A DNA stretch of 64,000 nt from an uncultured Litoreibacter sp. (GTDB lineage: Bacteria > Pseudomonadota > Alphaproteobacteria > Rhodobacterales > Rhodobacteraceae). Below are positions 59,886-64,000 of this stretch, piece after piece. Location: positions 682,001 to 746,000 of the forward strand of contig CANLVO010000001.1 of NCBI GenBank assembly GCA_947494645.1. The letters run 5' to 3'. The position numbers were made by a program, and so were the translations under genes. The first letter of the stretch is position 1. Each line of letters begins with the position of its first letter. Below the pieces are notes generated by a model that saw only the letters and a list, made by a program, of their open reading frames with translations, was not told where the DNA came from and searched no databases.

Positions 59886-60731
59886 CTACGCCTGTTGTCT
59901 TTCCCGGTGCCAGACATAGAGACCGGCCGCCGCGATCACAAGCGCACCCAGATAGACCGGGGCATCGGGGTAGTGATCAAAGATGACGATGCCCCACACT
60001 GCAGAAAAGATCAGCGACGTGTAGGACAGAGGCGCAAGGGCCGAGGCCTCTGCATGCACAAAAGCGGTGGTCAGACAAAGTTGTGCGGCCGAGCCGAATG
60101 CGCCGACACAGAGCAGCATGACCAGATCGAGGCCCGTTGGCGTTTGCCAGTAGAACGGCACTAGGACGGACAACACGAGCGTGGCGATGAGCCCGGTGTA
60201 GAACAGCGAGGTCCAGACATCCTCGTCGCGGCCGACAAACCGCGTGGCCAGCGCGTAGCCTGAATAAAACAGCGCGCCCAGCATCGGAAAAAGCAGCCAC
60301 GCAGAGAACCCGTCCGTGCCGGGGCGCAGAATGATCAATGCGCCCACAAGGCCAGCGCCCACACTTGTGGCCCTGTGCCAGCCAATACGCTCGCCCAGAA
60401 ACAGCACCGCCCCCAGCGTCAGAAAGATCGGGGCGGTCTGGGCGATGGCGTTGCTCTCGATCAGGGAGTTCTTCTGGTAGCCTACGAAAAAGCTGGCCGT
60501 GGCGAGCAGCACAAAGACAGAGCGCAGCACCTGGACGCGCGGGTGACGGGTCTGGATGACCTGCCGCAATCGGGGGGCAGCGATGGCGGTGACCAGCGCC
60601 AGCTGGCCCGCATTGCGAAACCACAGGATTTGTACCGTGTCGACACGGGCCGACAGCAGTTTGACGAACACCTCCATCGCCGAAAAACAGAACACCGCCA
60701 TGACCATGAGCGCAAATCCGTTGCGCAACAT
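59886..60731 (-). CDS. EamA/DMT family permease
   Basis: A 281-aa inner-membrane protein with ten helices and two EamA repeats (TAPIFLTLGAVLFLGERIGW and the second-half FVHAEASALAPLSYTSLIFS). Substrate unknown. It follows the nitrile-hydratase-like alpha gene by 7 bases and may be co-expressed; whether it moves a substrate or product of that enzyme is speculation. Distant from the EamA protein at 14510. Confidence 0.88.
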   Translation of the reverse strand: MLRNGFALMVMAVFCFSAMEVFVKLLSARVDTVQILWFRNAGQLALVTAIAAPRLRQVIQTRHPRVQVLRSVFVLLATASFFVGYQKNSLIESNAIAQTAPIFLTLGAVLFLGERIGWHRATSVGAGLVGALIILRPGTDGFSAWLLFPMLGALFYSGYALATRFVGRDEDVWTSLFYTGLIATLVLSVLVPFYWQTPTGLDLVMLLCVGAFGSAAQLCLTTAFVHAEASALAPLSYTSLIFSAVWGIVIFDHYPDAPVYLGALVIAAAGLYVWHRERQQA

Positions 60732-60738
60732 GGCAGGT

Positions 60739-61383
60739 CTAGCCCGGAACTTTGGGCAGGCCGGTGCCGATCATGCTGTCGCGGGTGACCAATTCGGCCA
60801 GCTGCTCCTGGCTCCATCCTTCTGTGCCAGCGGGACGGGCGGGCAGCACGATGTAACGCATGTCGGCGGTGCTGTCATGGACGCGGCAGGTGGTGGCTTC
60901 CGGCAGGTCCACCCCAAATTCAGCCAGCACCTTGCGCGGCTCTTTCACGGTGCGCGAGCGGTACTCGCGGGTCTTGTACCAATCGGGCGGCAGGCCCAGC
61001 AGGTTGCGCGGGTAGCAGCTGCACAGCGTGCAGACGATCACGTTATGGGTGTCTTCGGTGTTCTCGACAGCGACCAGGTTCATCGGGCCGATGTCGAACC
61101 CCATCTCGCGGGTCGCCTTTGACCCGTCAGCCAAGAGCGCCGCCTTGAACGATGGCTCGTCCCACGCGCGGGCCACAACCTTTGCGCCATTGGTGGGGTT
61201 GCGGGCGTCCATCGCTTCGATCTGCGCGTTGACCTCAGCGGCGGTAAACTCGCCCTTTTCGATCATGATCTCGCGGATCGCGATTTCCATGGTCTGCCAG
61301 TAGCTGAGCGGCGCGTCATTGTCTTCGCGGTAGGGGTGGCCCGACGGCGAGAGGTGATGATGATCGTAATGGTCATGCGGCAT
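60739..61383 (-). CDS. Nitrile hydratase alpha / thiocyanate hydrolase gamma-like subunit
   Basis: A 214-aa catalytic-type subunit. The metal site is C118-T-L-C121-S-C123 in VIVCTLCSCYP, the pattern of cobalt-type enzymes (iron types usually have CSLCSC). The sequence after the claw is CYPRNLLGLPPDWYK, where CYPWPVLG is more usual. EYRSRTVKEPRKVLAEFGVD and RPAGTEGWSQEQLAELVTRD complete the family pattern. The N-terminus is His-rich (PHDHYDHHH), possibly binding metal. It starts 11 bases inside the upstream beta-C gene, so it is coupled. It could hydrate nitriles to amides or hydrolyse thiocyanate; sequence alone does not decide. Confidence 0.88.
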   Translation of the reverse strand: MPHDHYDHHHLSPSGHPYREDNDAPLSYWQTMEIAIREIMIEKGEFTAAEVNAQIEAMDARNPTNGAKVVARAWDEPSFKAALLADGSKATREMGFDIGPMNLVAVENTEDTHNVIVCTLCSCYPRNLLGLPPDWYKTREYRSRTVKEPRKVLAEFGVDLPEATTCRVHDSTADMRYIVLPARPAGTEGWSQEQLAELVTRDSMIGTGLPKVPG

Positions 61384-61651
61384 GTGTGTCGATCCAATGC
61401 TCGTAGATTTCAGCGTCGAGCGTGTCGTCGGGCGTCTCAGCCTCATCGCCCCACAGCTCTCTCATCGAAAAACGGACGCGGTAGAGCTGCTTTTCTGGCG
61501 CCGGCAGGCAATAGGCCCGTTGCTCAGGGTTCTCATAAGGCCCAAGCGCGCGTTCGATCACCCCGGTCTTGCCGCGCAGGTAATGTGGCGTGCGGATATG
61601 GCCCGGCGGGGACATGTCGCGGATGCGGACCTGAGCGCCTGCCTCAAGCAT
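61373..61651 (-). CDS. Nitrile hydratase beta C-terminal domain / ScnA-like subunit
   Basis: A 92-aa protein corresponding only to the C-terminal SH3-like half of nitrile hydratase beta. It has AGAQVRIRDMSPPGHIRTPH followed by YLRGKTGVIERALGPYENPE and YRVRFSMRELWGD, in the order of the beta family. In thiocyanate hydrolase this half is a separate subunit. It overlaps the beta-N gene by 8 bases and the alpha gene by 11. ATG 61651 is chosen because family similarity starts there. Confidence 0.88.
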   Translation of the reverse strand: MLEAGAQVRIRDMSPPGHIRTPHYLRGKTGVIERALGPYENPEQRAYCLPAPEKQLYRVRFSMRELWGDEAETPDDTLDAEIYEHWIDTHAA

Positions 61652-62009
61652 TTTGAGCCGCCCCGTAGGTGTCGCCGCGCGCCTTGACCTCTTCCATCTT
61701 CGCGCCAAGCTCTTCGAGCGTGTAGACCCCGGCCTCGATGAAGTTCTGGTTCACGGATGCCACCCAGCGCTCGTAATAGGTCATCTCTTCAAAGGCTTTC
61801 TCGCCCATGTCCTCCAGACAGCGGCGCAGCCCGTCGACGGTGAAATGGCCACGCGCCGATCCGAGGATCATCAGCGCGTCGACGCGCTTTTCCCACAGGG
61901 CGAAGTCATGTTGGTCGTTGGGCACGGGACCGGCGGCATCGCCACCCATGTCATGCCAGCGGCGGGCTTCGGGAAAGTCGTGCTCGGGGTGGTCTGGTGA
62001 TTTGCTCAT
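61644..62009 (-). CDS. Nitrile hydratase beta N-terminal domain / ScnB-like subunit
   Basis: A 121-aa protein matching the N-terminal helical half of nitrile hydratase beta: RWHDMGGDAAGPVPNDQHDF (about residues 17-36), FALWEKRVDALMILG and EEMTYYERWVASVNQNFIEA. It lacks the SH3-like half, which is encoded by the next gene. It could also serve as the metal-insertion activator, since those proteins resemble this domain, and no separate activator is present. It starts 21 bases after the DUF442 gene. Confidence 0.85.
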   Translation of the reverse strand: MSKSPDHPEHDFPEARRWHDMGGDAAGPVPNDQHDFALWEKRVDALMILGSARGHFTVDGLRRCLEDMGEKAFEEMTYYERWVASVNQNFIEAGVYTLEELGAKMEEVKARGDTYGAAQNA

Positions 62010-62030: not shown

Positions 62031-62453
62031 TTACTGCTGCGCAAGCATATCCAACTGCCCGCGCATCTGTTCCATCGGGTAGCCTGCATCGGCCATGGCT
62101 TTGAGGATGTCATCGGTGGGCATCTGCCCCGCCTGCGACAGCCCCCACAAGATTGCCGACCGCGTGCCGGAGGCGCAATAGGCCAGCACTTTGCCGCCTT
62201 CTTTGTGGCCTTCACGCTGCGCCGCGATCATCTCCATATTGAGCTGCCCGCCCGCCATCGGATTGTTTGTCCAGCCCAGCCCTGCACCCTCTGCGGCCTG
62301 CTTGATGAGGTCGGGCTGCTGATCCGGCGCGCTTTCAAAGGCGGGGCGGTTGCAGATGACATGGGTGAAGCCTTGCTCGGCCAAAATGGCCAGATCATCG
62401 GCGTCTATCTGCGGGGCCACGGCGAAATCAGGGGTGAGGGGGCGTATGTCCAT
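62031..62453 (-). CDS. DUF442 / TIGR01244 family rhodanese-like sulfur transferase
   Basis: A 140-aa phosphatase-fold protein with active-site loop YCASGTRSA (C93 to R98). DUF442 domains are fused to or neighbour persulfide dioxygenases and act as rhodanese-like sulfur transferases in sulfide detoxification (the Blh protein of the bigR operon joins both). ITHVICNRP-type sequence (FTHVICNRPAFESAPDQQPD) is also present. ATG 62453 is chosen because the domain begins there. It lies 4 bases after pmpB. Confidence 0.88.
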   Translation of the reverse strand: MDIRPLTPDFAVAPQIDADDLAILAEQGFTHVICNRPAFESAPDQQPDLIKQAAEGAGLGWTNNPMAGGQLNMEMIAAQREGHKEGGKVLAYCASGTRSAILWGLSQAGQMPTDDILKAMADAGYPMEQMRGQLDMLAQQ

Positions 62454-62457
62454 GCCT

Positions 62458-62883
62458 TCAGGTTCCTCTTGCAAGCGCCGCTGTCACCCGCGGCTGCGCC
62501 ATCATGGCCGCGCACATGGCCACGAAGAACACCAACCCTTGCCAGCCGCCAAAACTGAGCGAGGCCATGGCTGGGCCGGGGCAGAGCCCTGACAGGCCCC
62601 AGCCGACGCCGAAAAGCCCTGAGCCAACAGCGAGTTGCGGGGTGATTTTCGCATCTGACGGCGCGGGGATGGGGCCGCCCAAAAGCGCCTCTCGCCTGCG
62701 GGCTGCGACGCGCCAGGCGATGGTCATGGGAAGGATCGCGCCTCCCAAGACGAAGGCCAGCGTCGGGTCCCACGCCCCGAACACATCCAGCCAGCCCTGC
62801 ACCTTGGCGGTGTCCGTCATGCCCGATGTCAAAAGGCCCAGCCCGAACAGCCCGCCTGCGGCCAGCGCAATCAGCCCGCGCAT
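62458..62883 (-). CDS. YeeE/YedE family sulfur transporter subunit (PmpB-like)
   Basis: A 141-aa membrane protein of the DUF6691/YeeE group, four helices: start MRGLIALAAGGLFGLGLLTS (about residues 1-20) and SGLFGVGWGLSGLCPGPAMA near 90-110. It pairs with PmpA to bring in or move sulfur compounds such as thiosulfate. Its ATG overlaps the pmpA stop by one base (TGATG). A longer frame beginning at 63294 is a shadow of pmpA. Confidence 0.88.
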   Translation of the reverse strand: MRGLIALAAGGLFGLGLLTSGMTDTAKVQGWLDVFGAWDPTLAFVLGGAILPMTIAWRVAARRREALLGGPIPAPSDAKITPQLAVGSGLFGVGWGLSGLCPGPAMASLSFGGWQGLVFFVAMCAAMMAQPRVTAALARGT

Positions 62884-63311
62884 CAGATCACCCCCAGCAT
62901 CTGGCGAAACACCAGCACGGTGACGGCGCCTGCCACCAGATAAAACACCGTGGCAGTTATCCCGCGCACTGATAGTCGCGAAATGCCGCAAACCCCATGC
63001 CCCGAGGTGCATCCATTTGCCAGCCGCGTGCCGAACCCCACGCAGAGCCCGGCGGCAATCAGCACCGCAACGTTCGAGGTCAATTGCGTTGGTGGCGCCC
63101 CGCGGAACAGGTGCCACAGCAGGGGCGCGCCGATCAGGCCTGCAAGAAACCACAAGGCTTCCGAGCGTGCCGCCCCTTTGCGGGACCCATCGACAACGCC
63201 GCCCAAAAGGCCGGAGGCCCCCATGATCCGCCCGTTCATCAGCAAGAACACAGCCGCTGCTGTGCCAATCATCAGGCCTCCGACAAGGCCCCATATCCAG
63301 TCAACTGGCAT
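62883..63311 (-). CDS. YeeE/YedE family sulfur transporter subunit (PmpA-like)
   Basis: A 142-aa membrane protein of the same superfamily. The NGCTSGHGVCGISRLSVR motif (about residues 99-116) includes two cysteines thought to handle sulfur. An N-terminal NGRIMGASGLLGG is also typical. It is placed between the persulfide dioxygenase and PmpB, the order of bigR-type sulfide operons. Confidence 0.9.
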   Translation of the reverse strand: MPVDWIWGLVGGLMIGTAAAVFLLMNGRIMGASGLLGGVVDGSRKGAARSEALWFLAGLIGAPLLWHLFRGAPPTQLTSNVAVLIAAGLCVGFGTRLANGCTSGHGVCGISRLSVRGITATVFYLVAGAVTVLVFRQMLGVI

Positions 63312-63355
63312 CTTTCATCTTCCCATGTTCAAAAATATCCGCCCCGCAGGGCCGC
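63312..63355 (-). repeat. GATATTTTTGAACATGG motif copy
   Basis: A minus-oriented copy of the dispersed motif (GGGGCGGATATTTTTGAACA on the minus strand) in the 44-base gap between the dioxygenase and pmpA genes. It is oriented with transcription, following the upstream gene's stop. Confidence 0.5.
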
Positions 63356-64000
63356 TCACAACCCGTCGACCGGCACTTTCAGGAACACCTTCCCGTCGTC
63401 ATCCGGCTCGGGCATGTTGCCTGCGCGCATGTTGACCTGCAGGGACGGGATGATCAGTTTGGGCATGCCCAGCGTCGCGTCGCGGCCTTCGCGTAAGGCA
63501 ACAAAATCCTCGCGGCTGACGCCCCCGCCGATATGCACGTTGCTGGCCTTTTCCGCCGCGACCGAGGTTTCCCACGCGAACTCGTCGCGGCCCGGCGCCT
63601 TGTAGTCGTGACAGACAAATATCCGCGTCTCGTCGGGCAAGGACAGAATCTTCTGGATCGAGTCGTAAAGATCGCCCGCTGACCCGCCCGGAAAGTCGCA
63701 ACGTGCCGTGCCGAAATCGGGCATGAACAGCGTGTCGCCCACAAAAGCCGCGTCGCCGATGACATAGGTCATGCATGCGGGCGTGTGGCCCGGCGTGTGC
63801 AGCACGTCGCCGCGTAGCTGGCCGATATGGAAGCTGTCGCCTTCCTTGAAGAGTTGGTCAAATTGCGAGCCGTCGCGCTGAAATGCGGTGCCCTCGTTGA
63901 AGACCTTGCCGAACTCTTCCTGCACGGTGGTAATCGCCGAGCCGATGCCGATTTTGCCGCCCAGCGCCTCTTGCAGATAGGGCGCGGCGGACAGATGGTC
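63356..64000 (-). CDS. Persulfide dioxygenase-like MBL-fold protein (5' end outside window)
   Basis: The last 214 codons of a metallo-beta-lactamase-fold protein; the N-terminus and the first part of the HxHxDH motif lie beyond the right edge, with DHLSAAPYLQEALGGKIGIG the first visible part. Further metal ligands are in VLHTPGHTPACMTYVIGDAA and GDTLFMPDFGTARCDFPGGS, and VCHDY near the C-terminus. GTARCDFPGG is characteristic of the ETHE1/Blh persulfide dioxygenases that oxidise glutathione persulfide to sulfite. With pmpA, pmpB and DUF442 it forms a sulfide-handling cluster. A regulator (BigR-like) could lie outside the window. Confidence 0.88.
   Translation of the reverse strand, partial: DHLSAAPYLQEALGGKIGIGSAITTVQEEFGKVFNEGTAFQRDGSQFDQLFKEGDSFHIGQLRGDVLHTPGHTPACMTYVIGDAAFVGDTLFMPDFGTARCDFPGGSAGDLYDSIQKILSLPDETRIFVCHDYKAPGRDEFAWETSVAAEKASNVHIGGGVSREDFVALREGRDATLGMPKLIIPSLQVNMRAGNMPEPDDDGKVFLKVPVDGL

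Follow-up and report, generated by a model that had tools for sequence, protein, structure and literature searches.

A probable three-subunit, cobalt-type nitrile hydratase with a divided beta chain in Litoreibacter and related bacteria

Introduction

Within a window of 64,000 nucleotides from an uncultured Litoreibacter sp. (contig CANLVO010000001.1), a gene for the alpha subunit of a nitrile hydratase (NHase) follows two short genes that each resemble one half of the NHase beta chain. The question raised by this locus is whether it encodes an ordinary two-subunit NHase with a broken beta gene, a thiocyanate hydrolase (SCNase), a three-subunit NHase or something new. Toyocamycin nitrile hydratase, ToyJKL, is an enzyme of three subunits. 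The genes of SCNase presumably stand in the order scnB-scnA-scnC; at a Roseomonas locus, a protein matching first ScnB and then ScnA lies ahead of ScnC. According to the available part of PMC7193024, the SCNase genes are arranged as alpha, beta, gamma and activator. A three-subunit NHase from Streptomyces canus CGMCC 13662, AnhD-AnhE-AnhA, is described in PMC7329996, PMC11573777 and PMC13243292 (each available in part) and hydrates acetamiprid, thiacloprid and BN (PMC7329996). As far as the accessible text of PMC7329996 goes, this enzyme resembles that of the window in its order beta-N, beta-C, alpha, in its separate beta halves, in its cobalt type and in that no activator gene is recognised; it was compared by description, and the Streptomyces row of our trees (L205) branches apart from the window. 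The plasmid-borne NHase of Microvirga flocculans CGMCC 1.16731 is likewise described, in the excerpt of PMC11573777, as having two beta-part genes and one alpha gene and as being of cobalt type. There, as in L206 and L207, the alpha gene lies between the two beta genes, whereas the window has the order bN-bC-alpha. Streptomyces sp. NBC_01176 shows the gene order of the window, with no extra bN gene nearby.

A locus of three overlapping genes

The first-pass annotation had proposed separate beta-N and beta-C genes followed by alpha, with overlaps of 8 and 11 bases and a cobalt-type claw. Three minus-strand open reading frames with Pfam and TIGR03888 matches bear this out, and both overlaps and the claw are present in the sequence:

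61644..62009, minus strand: bN, the N-terminal half of NHase beta as a protein of its own, 121 aa, equivalent to AnhD/ScnB (PF21006, TIGR03888)
61373..61651, minus strand: bC, the C-terminal half of beta as a protein of its own, 92 aa, equivalent to AnhE/ScnA (PF02211, TIGR03888)
60739..61383, minus strand: alpha, a 214-aa NHase alpha subunit with its ATG at 61383 and a His-rich N-terminus (PF02979, TIGR01323)
61644..61651, minus strand: overlap of bN stop and bC start, 8 bases (sequence)
61373..61383, minus strand: overlap of bC stop and alpha start, 11 bases (sequence)
61015..61032, minus strand: CTLCSC metal claw of alpha, C118-C123, cobalt type (sequence)

All three proteins score above the respective Pfam cut-offs: bN, scanned without Met1, matches PF21006 (NHase_beta_N) with 66.3 bits, bC matches PF02211 (NHase_beta_C) with 80.4 bits, and alpha matches PF02979 (NHase_alpha) with 267.9 bits. 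The 226-position beta model TIGR03888 is covered in order, by bN at positions 3-103 and by bC at positions 140-224; as two separate proteins they score 60.0 and 73.3 bits and do not reach the one-chain cut-off of 152.2. The claw, from which cobalt is predicted, is the CTLCSC of cobalt-type NHases and is identical in all 165 non-identical alphas of the first locus set. A search of the whole genome returned a single NHase alpha.

Conservation of the divided beta chain

That bN and bC match one beta model in order speaks for an ordinary two-subunit NHase whose beta gene has been broken by a frameshift or a sequencing error. The relatives speak against it. The alpha family is present in all 21 genomes of the genus sample, and the 20 complete loci (that of G009 is cut by a contig end) are all split, with bN, bC and alpha in separate reading frames in this order. 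Among the best 80 of 591 confirmed named relatives—retrieved with a query built from split alphas, hence not a fair sample, and in part the same organisms as genomes sampled here—77 are split, three are cut by contig ends, and none has bN and bC in one reading frame. Of 394 sampled genomes from the family, 202 gave an alpha hit at E <= 0.001, which in 199 exceeded the cut-off. In the bC search of the same sample, 65 genomes matched at E < 1e-13, the weaker matches then lying mostly in long open frames, and the split was found in all 50 loci fetched from those 65 genomes. At 48 bN/bC junctions, measured from whichever in-frame start codon lay closest to the bN stop, the overlap was +8 (25 junctions), +4 (12), -4 (9), -1 (1) or +1 (1) bases, values that correspond to two different relative frames. 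The split enzymes moreover mostly lack an activator and carry Arg in place of Trp, as detailed below. No close relative with a fused beta was seen that would indicate a base error near 61644-61651. Since the genus loci and the named relatives are split and the junctions occur in two frames, a frameshift or base error was rejected, and a broken beta gene has next to no chance of being the explanation. The three-gene arrangement is thus real and widespread among relatives, and of a kind already described in a few other bacteria.

Several loci stand out by their arrangement or annotation. In L204-L207, the split beta halves are publicly annotated as 'SH3-like domain-containing protein' and in one case as 'nitrile hydratase'; with the halves labelled mostly in this way, a three-gene enzyme can readily escape notice. 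For Roseobacter CCS2, the available part of PMC3323583 speaks of a beta that 'appeared truncated', which may represent the same split. L181 (290-2169) holds a Trp-type NHase whose beta parts lie in two frames, alongside a separate activator gene; this may reflect a frameshift or a recent split. One genus member has a second, divergent split copy elsewhere (L131, G008:C1:954000-968000), the bC of which is 39 percent identical to that of the window. At L113:1483-2724 and L114:1012-2070, bN is fused directly to alpha by a His-rich linker, with no bC domain in the reading frame.

Nitrile hydratase or thiocyanate hydrolase

The window's alpha narrowly passes the NHase alpha model TIGR01323 (261.2 bits against a cut-off of 249.85) and fails TIGR03887, the model for ScnC, the gamma subunit of SCNase (205.7 against 291.45). 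ScnC references taken from plasmid records of Roseomonas and Azospirillum reach 359.2 and 356.8 bits on TIGR03887. A split alpha from R. leguminosarum falls just under the TIGR01323 cut-off, at 248.0 bits, which counts against assignment to NHase. In searches of PDB sequences, cobalt NHases rank first for alpha (3qxe 209.7 bits, 1v29 210.3, ScnC 168.6) and bC scores 54.3 bits with a cobalt NHase as against 35.2 with ScnA. For bN, the P. putida NHase scores 39.3 bits and ScnB 33.9; ScnB outranks every other NHase beta in PDB, a second point against the NHase assignment. No ScnC over the TIGR03887 cut-off was found in 289 class genomes or in 398 phylum genomes, two overlapping samples; the loci from these searches are the best by the ScnC model and do not form a fair sample.

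The column-by-column comparison of residues took in 108 split alphas, 3 ScnC and 58 rows of the fused type, of which 55 are loci and 3 are PDB entries. With numbering for bN, P. putida and P. thermophila counted on PDB alignments, the following positions (all minus strand) are of interest:

61826-61824, minus strand: bN R62, equivalent to beta Arg52 (residue table)
61814-61812, minus strand: bN E66, equivalent to P. putida beta Glu56 (residue table)
61769-61767, minus strand: bN R81 (residue table)
61600-61598, minus strand: bC H18, equivalent to P. putida beta His147 (PDB alignments, residue table)
61594-61592, minus strand: bC R20, equivalent to P. thermophila beta Arg157 (PDB alignments, residue table)
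61006..61008, minus strand: alpha Arg126, three residues past the claw (CSC-Y-P-R), where ScnC has Arg136 and most fused NHases have Trp

Under strict scoring, 11 alpha columns are common to split and fused enzymes and different in ScnC (six insert columns and five residues), as opposed to two (R37, R126) that are common to split enzymes and ScnC and different in the fused ones. For bC the count is even: H18 and G37 unite split and fused enzymes against ScnA, T21 and E81 unite split enzymes and ScnA against the fused. A nine-residue insert before the claw region is present in 3/3 ScnC rows and in none of the 108 split alphas. His at the position of beta His147 is found in 105/105 split and 55/55 fused enzymes, as against Tyr in 3/3 ScnA; Glu at the position of beta Glu56 in 103/105 split and 55/55 fused enzymes, as against Ala or Asn in the three ScnB rows. 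Glu56 and His147 are important in P. putida NHase (PMC8278588, in part), as are AnhD-Glu56 and AnhE-His21 in the S. canus NHase according to the accessible portion of a review (PMC13243292). Two features discriminate poorly. The Arg at bN R81 is that of 3/3 ScnB rows; it is a weak SCNase marker because 40 of the 55 fused beta-N chains have Lys. At least four His occur in the alpha N-terminus of 102/108 split and 50/55 fused enzymes.

Compared with the ScnABC of Thiobacillus thioparus (PDB 2dd4), the window's enzyme is thus alike in its three chains, in the split beta role, in CTLCSC and in Arg at position 126/136; it differs in the ScnC model and insert and in the residues at the His147 and Glu56 positions. 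With a two-subunit cobalt NHase that has a P14K-type activator (P. putida, 3qxe), it shares the alpha family, the claw and the beta positions Arg52, Glu56, His147 and Arg157. In contrast to the window, the two-subunit enzyme has a fused beta, an adjacent activator gene and Trp at position 126. Membership in the SCNase family was rejected: alpha fails TIGR03887 and lacks the ScnC insert, and NHase-type residues occupy the His147 and Glu56 positions. The first-pass annotation had left three readings side by side. Of these, a three-subunit NHase gains from the pass on TIGR01323 and from the presence of beta-N, beta-C and alpha genes together with no activator, as in enzymes of the AnhDEA kind. 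The proposed SCNase loses ground as a family assignment and keeps the SCNase-like Arg126 beside the claw. The architecture does not call for 'something new', as the available texts on S. canus (PMC7329996) and M. flocculans (PMC11573777) describe it.

On plasmids of Roseomonas marmotae (L202:3095-3946) and Azospirillum ramasamyi (L203:3036-3887), a ScnB-like and a ScnA-like part are fused into one protein, annotated 'SH3-like domain-containing protein'. It is followed by scnC and by a P15K-like reading frame for which no gene is listed.

An arginine beside the metal claw

Position 126 differs between split and fused enzymes: among the 108 non-identical split alphas it is Arg in 103, Lys in three and Trp in two (one of these is the split locus L160), and among the 55 fused alphas remaining when the two ScnC loci are left out it is Trp in 50, Phe in two, His in two and Leu in one. 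The best 80 of the 591 named relatives have Arg (76), Lys (3) or Trp (1). The equivalent residue of ScnC is Arg136; PDB 3vyg shows this protein with Trp there. The Arg is reported to control the selectivity of SCNase. The window's alpha has at this position the residue of SCNase rather than the Trp of NHase, which counts against its being an NHase. Streptomyces split relatives (L205, L279) also carry Arg, however, and the S. canus enzyme hydrates nitriles, so that Arg alone does not mean thiocyanate.

Relationship of split and fused enzymes

In a tree of 133 alpha rows, one clade (SH-aLRT 99) comprises the 38 fused NHases, L181 and the three NHases from PDB. In a concatenated tree of 64 rows and 386 columns—from which L154, L160, L161, L171, L181 and rows without all three parts were left out, and in which close copies were thinned—the 14 fused enzymes form one clade (100/100). 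When both trees are rooted on ScnC, the fused clade is nested among the split forms. This rooting is an assumption, and a root on the long fused branch would leave the ancestral state undecided; either the split form would be ancestral or the root may lie on that branch, and the data do not decide between the two. The window lies apart from the Streptomyces branch in the alpha and the concatenated tree, so the function of the S. canus enzyme need not carry over to it. The bN tree, built from few columns and with long branches, places activators and fused beta-N on one side and split bN and ScnB on the other with a support of 100, apart from two split rows, L154 and L181, which are placed on the side of fused beta-N; fused beta-N does not form one clade in it.

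A probable chaperone within the enzyme

A further bN-like gene lies nearby in 55 of the 57 loci with fused beta halves. Two of the 55 are the SCNase loci with fused ScnBA, where the P15K-like frame follows scnC (L202 and L203), so that 53 of 55 fused NHase loci have such a gene; L193 and L210 have none nearby. Among 105 split loci—the 108 less three for which no bN or bC was found in a separate reading frame—only one, the Trp-type L181 within the fused clade, has a further bN-like gene nearby, a local statement since the first locus set mostly extends no more than 1.5 kb past the match. The genome-wide search for bN-like genes, which covers the window's genome alone, returned bN as the only PF21006 match at E up to 1 and thus no separate activator there. 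No P15K-like protein, that is, no second bN-like match, was found in this genome, whereas SCNase has a P15K activator (a title cited in PMC3511329). Elsewhere in the genome are a homologue of a CbtA-type cobalt transporter and two amidases.

One reading of these data is that bN is an activator only and that the enzyme consists of alpha and bC or of something else. Proteins of the bN type are indeed related to activators, as a weak match of 13 bits to TIGR03889 (cut-off 46) indicates. Yet the Arg52 and Glu56 positions are each kept in 103 of 105 split bN, and the commonest residues of 53 activators at these positions differ; the bN tree, with the exceptions already named, sets activators beside fused beta-N and split bN beside ScnB. 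The worry that bN might group with activators only is thereby removed, and an activator-only role appears highly improbable. Since the genome search revealed no separate activator, it is most likely that bN, as a beta half, doubles as chaperone. In S. canus, the equivalent AnhD reportedly served in experiments as a metal and subunit-swapping chaperone (accessible part of PMC7329996).

The named split relative L258 (1951-2943, on a contig titled Devosia equisanguinis MAG) is a further exception to the activator pattern, with two tandem bN genes, both of the split kind, that score 99.9 and 112.7 bits. Such a pair might mark the beginning of a path to a chaperone that is separate from the enzyme.

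Genes next to the enzyme

The three genes are flanked on the same strand by:

62031..62474, minus strand: TIGR01244 sulfur transferase (BLH phosphatase domain), 21 bases before bN, beside the enzyme in the genus only (neighbour comparison)
59886..60731, minus strand: EamA-type transporter, 7 bases after alpha (downstream neighbour)

In the window, a persulfide-dioxygenase-like gene and a YeeE/DUF6691 pair lie upstream of the TIGR01244 gene. Of 18 orthologous genus loci, 17 have the TIGR01244 gene as the adjacent upstream neighbour, as opposed to none of 38 other loci; in other genera, PurB and FliG often lie upstream. By the gene picking used, the YeeE cluster extends to only 5 loci and the dioxygenase cluster to only 6, counts too low to call the whole sulfur block conserved. 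Downstream, an EamA transporter (27/57 loci), an acyltransferase and a protein with no NCBIfam match (43/57) recur in the genus and beyond, together with a gene (42/57) that we take to encode aconitase; this recurrence suggests vertical inheritance at a single chromosomal site. Across the 80 named loci, no gene cluster that reaches beyond the loci assigned to Rhodobacteraceae comprises more than 6 loci, the three enzyme genes apart, and these clusters are of generic kinds (SDR, ABC transporter, TctC, flavin oxidoreductase, acyl-CoA dehydrogenase).

Sulfur transferase and dioxygenase form one protein in the Blh model NF040641. In the window (62031-64000) they are two genes with YeeE/DUF6691 between them.

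A sulfur transferase gene ahead of the enzyme in the genus would suit a sulfur substrate and counts against an NHase. It adds to the case for an enzyme that, whatever its family, would convert thiocyanate to carbonyl sulfide and ammonia, the sulfide being handled by the neighbouring sulfur genes. The three-chain architecture, Arg126, bN R81 and the common side of split bN and ScnB in the bN tree can be cited for such a function, as can the TIGR01244 gene in the genus and the YeeE/DUF6691 and dioxygenase-like genes ahead of it in the window. The alpha chain argues otherwise, failing TIGR03887, lacking the insert and having five NHase-like residues against two ScnC-like ones. The bC columns are divided two against two with an NHase-like His147 position, the sulfur transferase is a neighbour in none of the 38 other loci, and no P15K-like protein was found in the genome. 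Furthermore, the Streptomyces relatives L205 and L279 share both Arg and architecture, and the S. canus enzyme hydrates nitriles (PMC7329996, available in part). Thiocyanate hydrolysis therefore seems unlikely as the function.

Proposed mode of action

The locus most probably (a probability of roughly 0.8) encodes a three-subunit, cobalt-type NHase in which bN and bC replace beta, with no separate activator and with bN also acting as chaperone. In this enzyme, bN and bC together would stand in for the single beta chain. The Cys-Thr-Leu-Cys-Ser-Cys claw of alpha would hold cobalt(III), with two of its cysteines oxidised. The C-N triple bond of the substrate would be held between this claw and the beta arginines R62 (bN) and R20 (bC) and hydrated to the amide, and bN would double as cobalt and subunit-swapping chaperone in the manner of the S. 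canus AnhD. Given Arg126, a small polar or anionic cyano compound is a plausible substrate.

Implications

No publication tying a split beta, a missing activator and the Arg together was noticed in a literature search mostly outside subscription journals. An architecture described from single cases is here found in 20 of 21 genus genomes and in all 50 loci retrieved among the 65 genomes of the family that match bC strongly, and the combination of split beta, missing activator and pocket Arg amounts to a rule open to experimental test. The locus is also a natural setting for the study of a protein that may be at once a catalytic half-subunit and a cobalt chaperone.

A wider interpretation, which the trees allow and which we put forward tentatively as doubtful, is that the split, activator-free, Arg-type enzyme is the older and broader form of the family. 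If so, two-chain NHase would be a later offshoot, marked by fusion of beta, by conversion of a beta-N copy into the dedicated activator and by a change of the pocket Arg to Trp; SCNase would be another offshoot that retained the Arg. In the marine Rhodobacterales, the substrate of the enzyme may then be a small cyano compound, polar or anionic, and the enzyme of the genus may be tied to sulfide oxidation.
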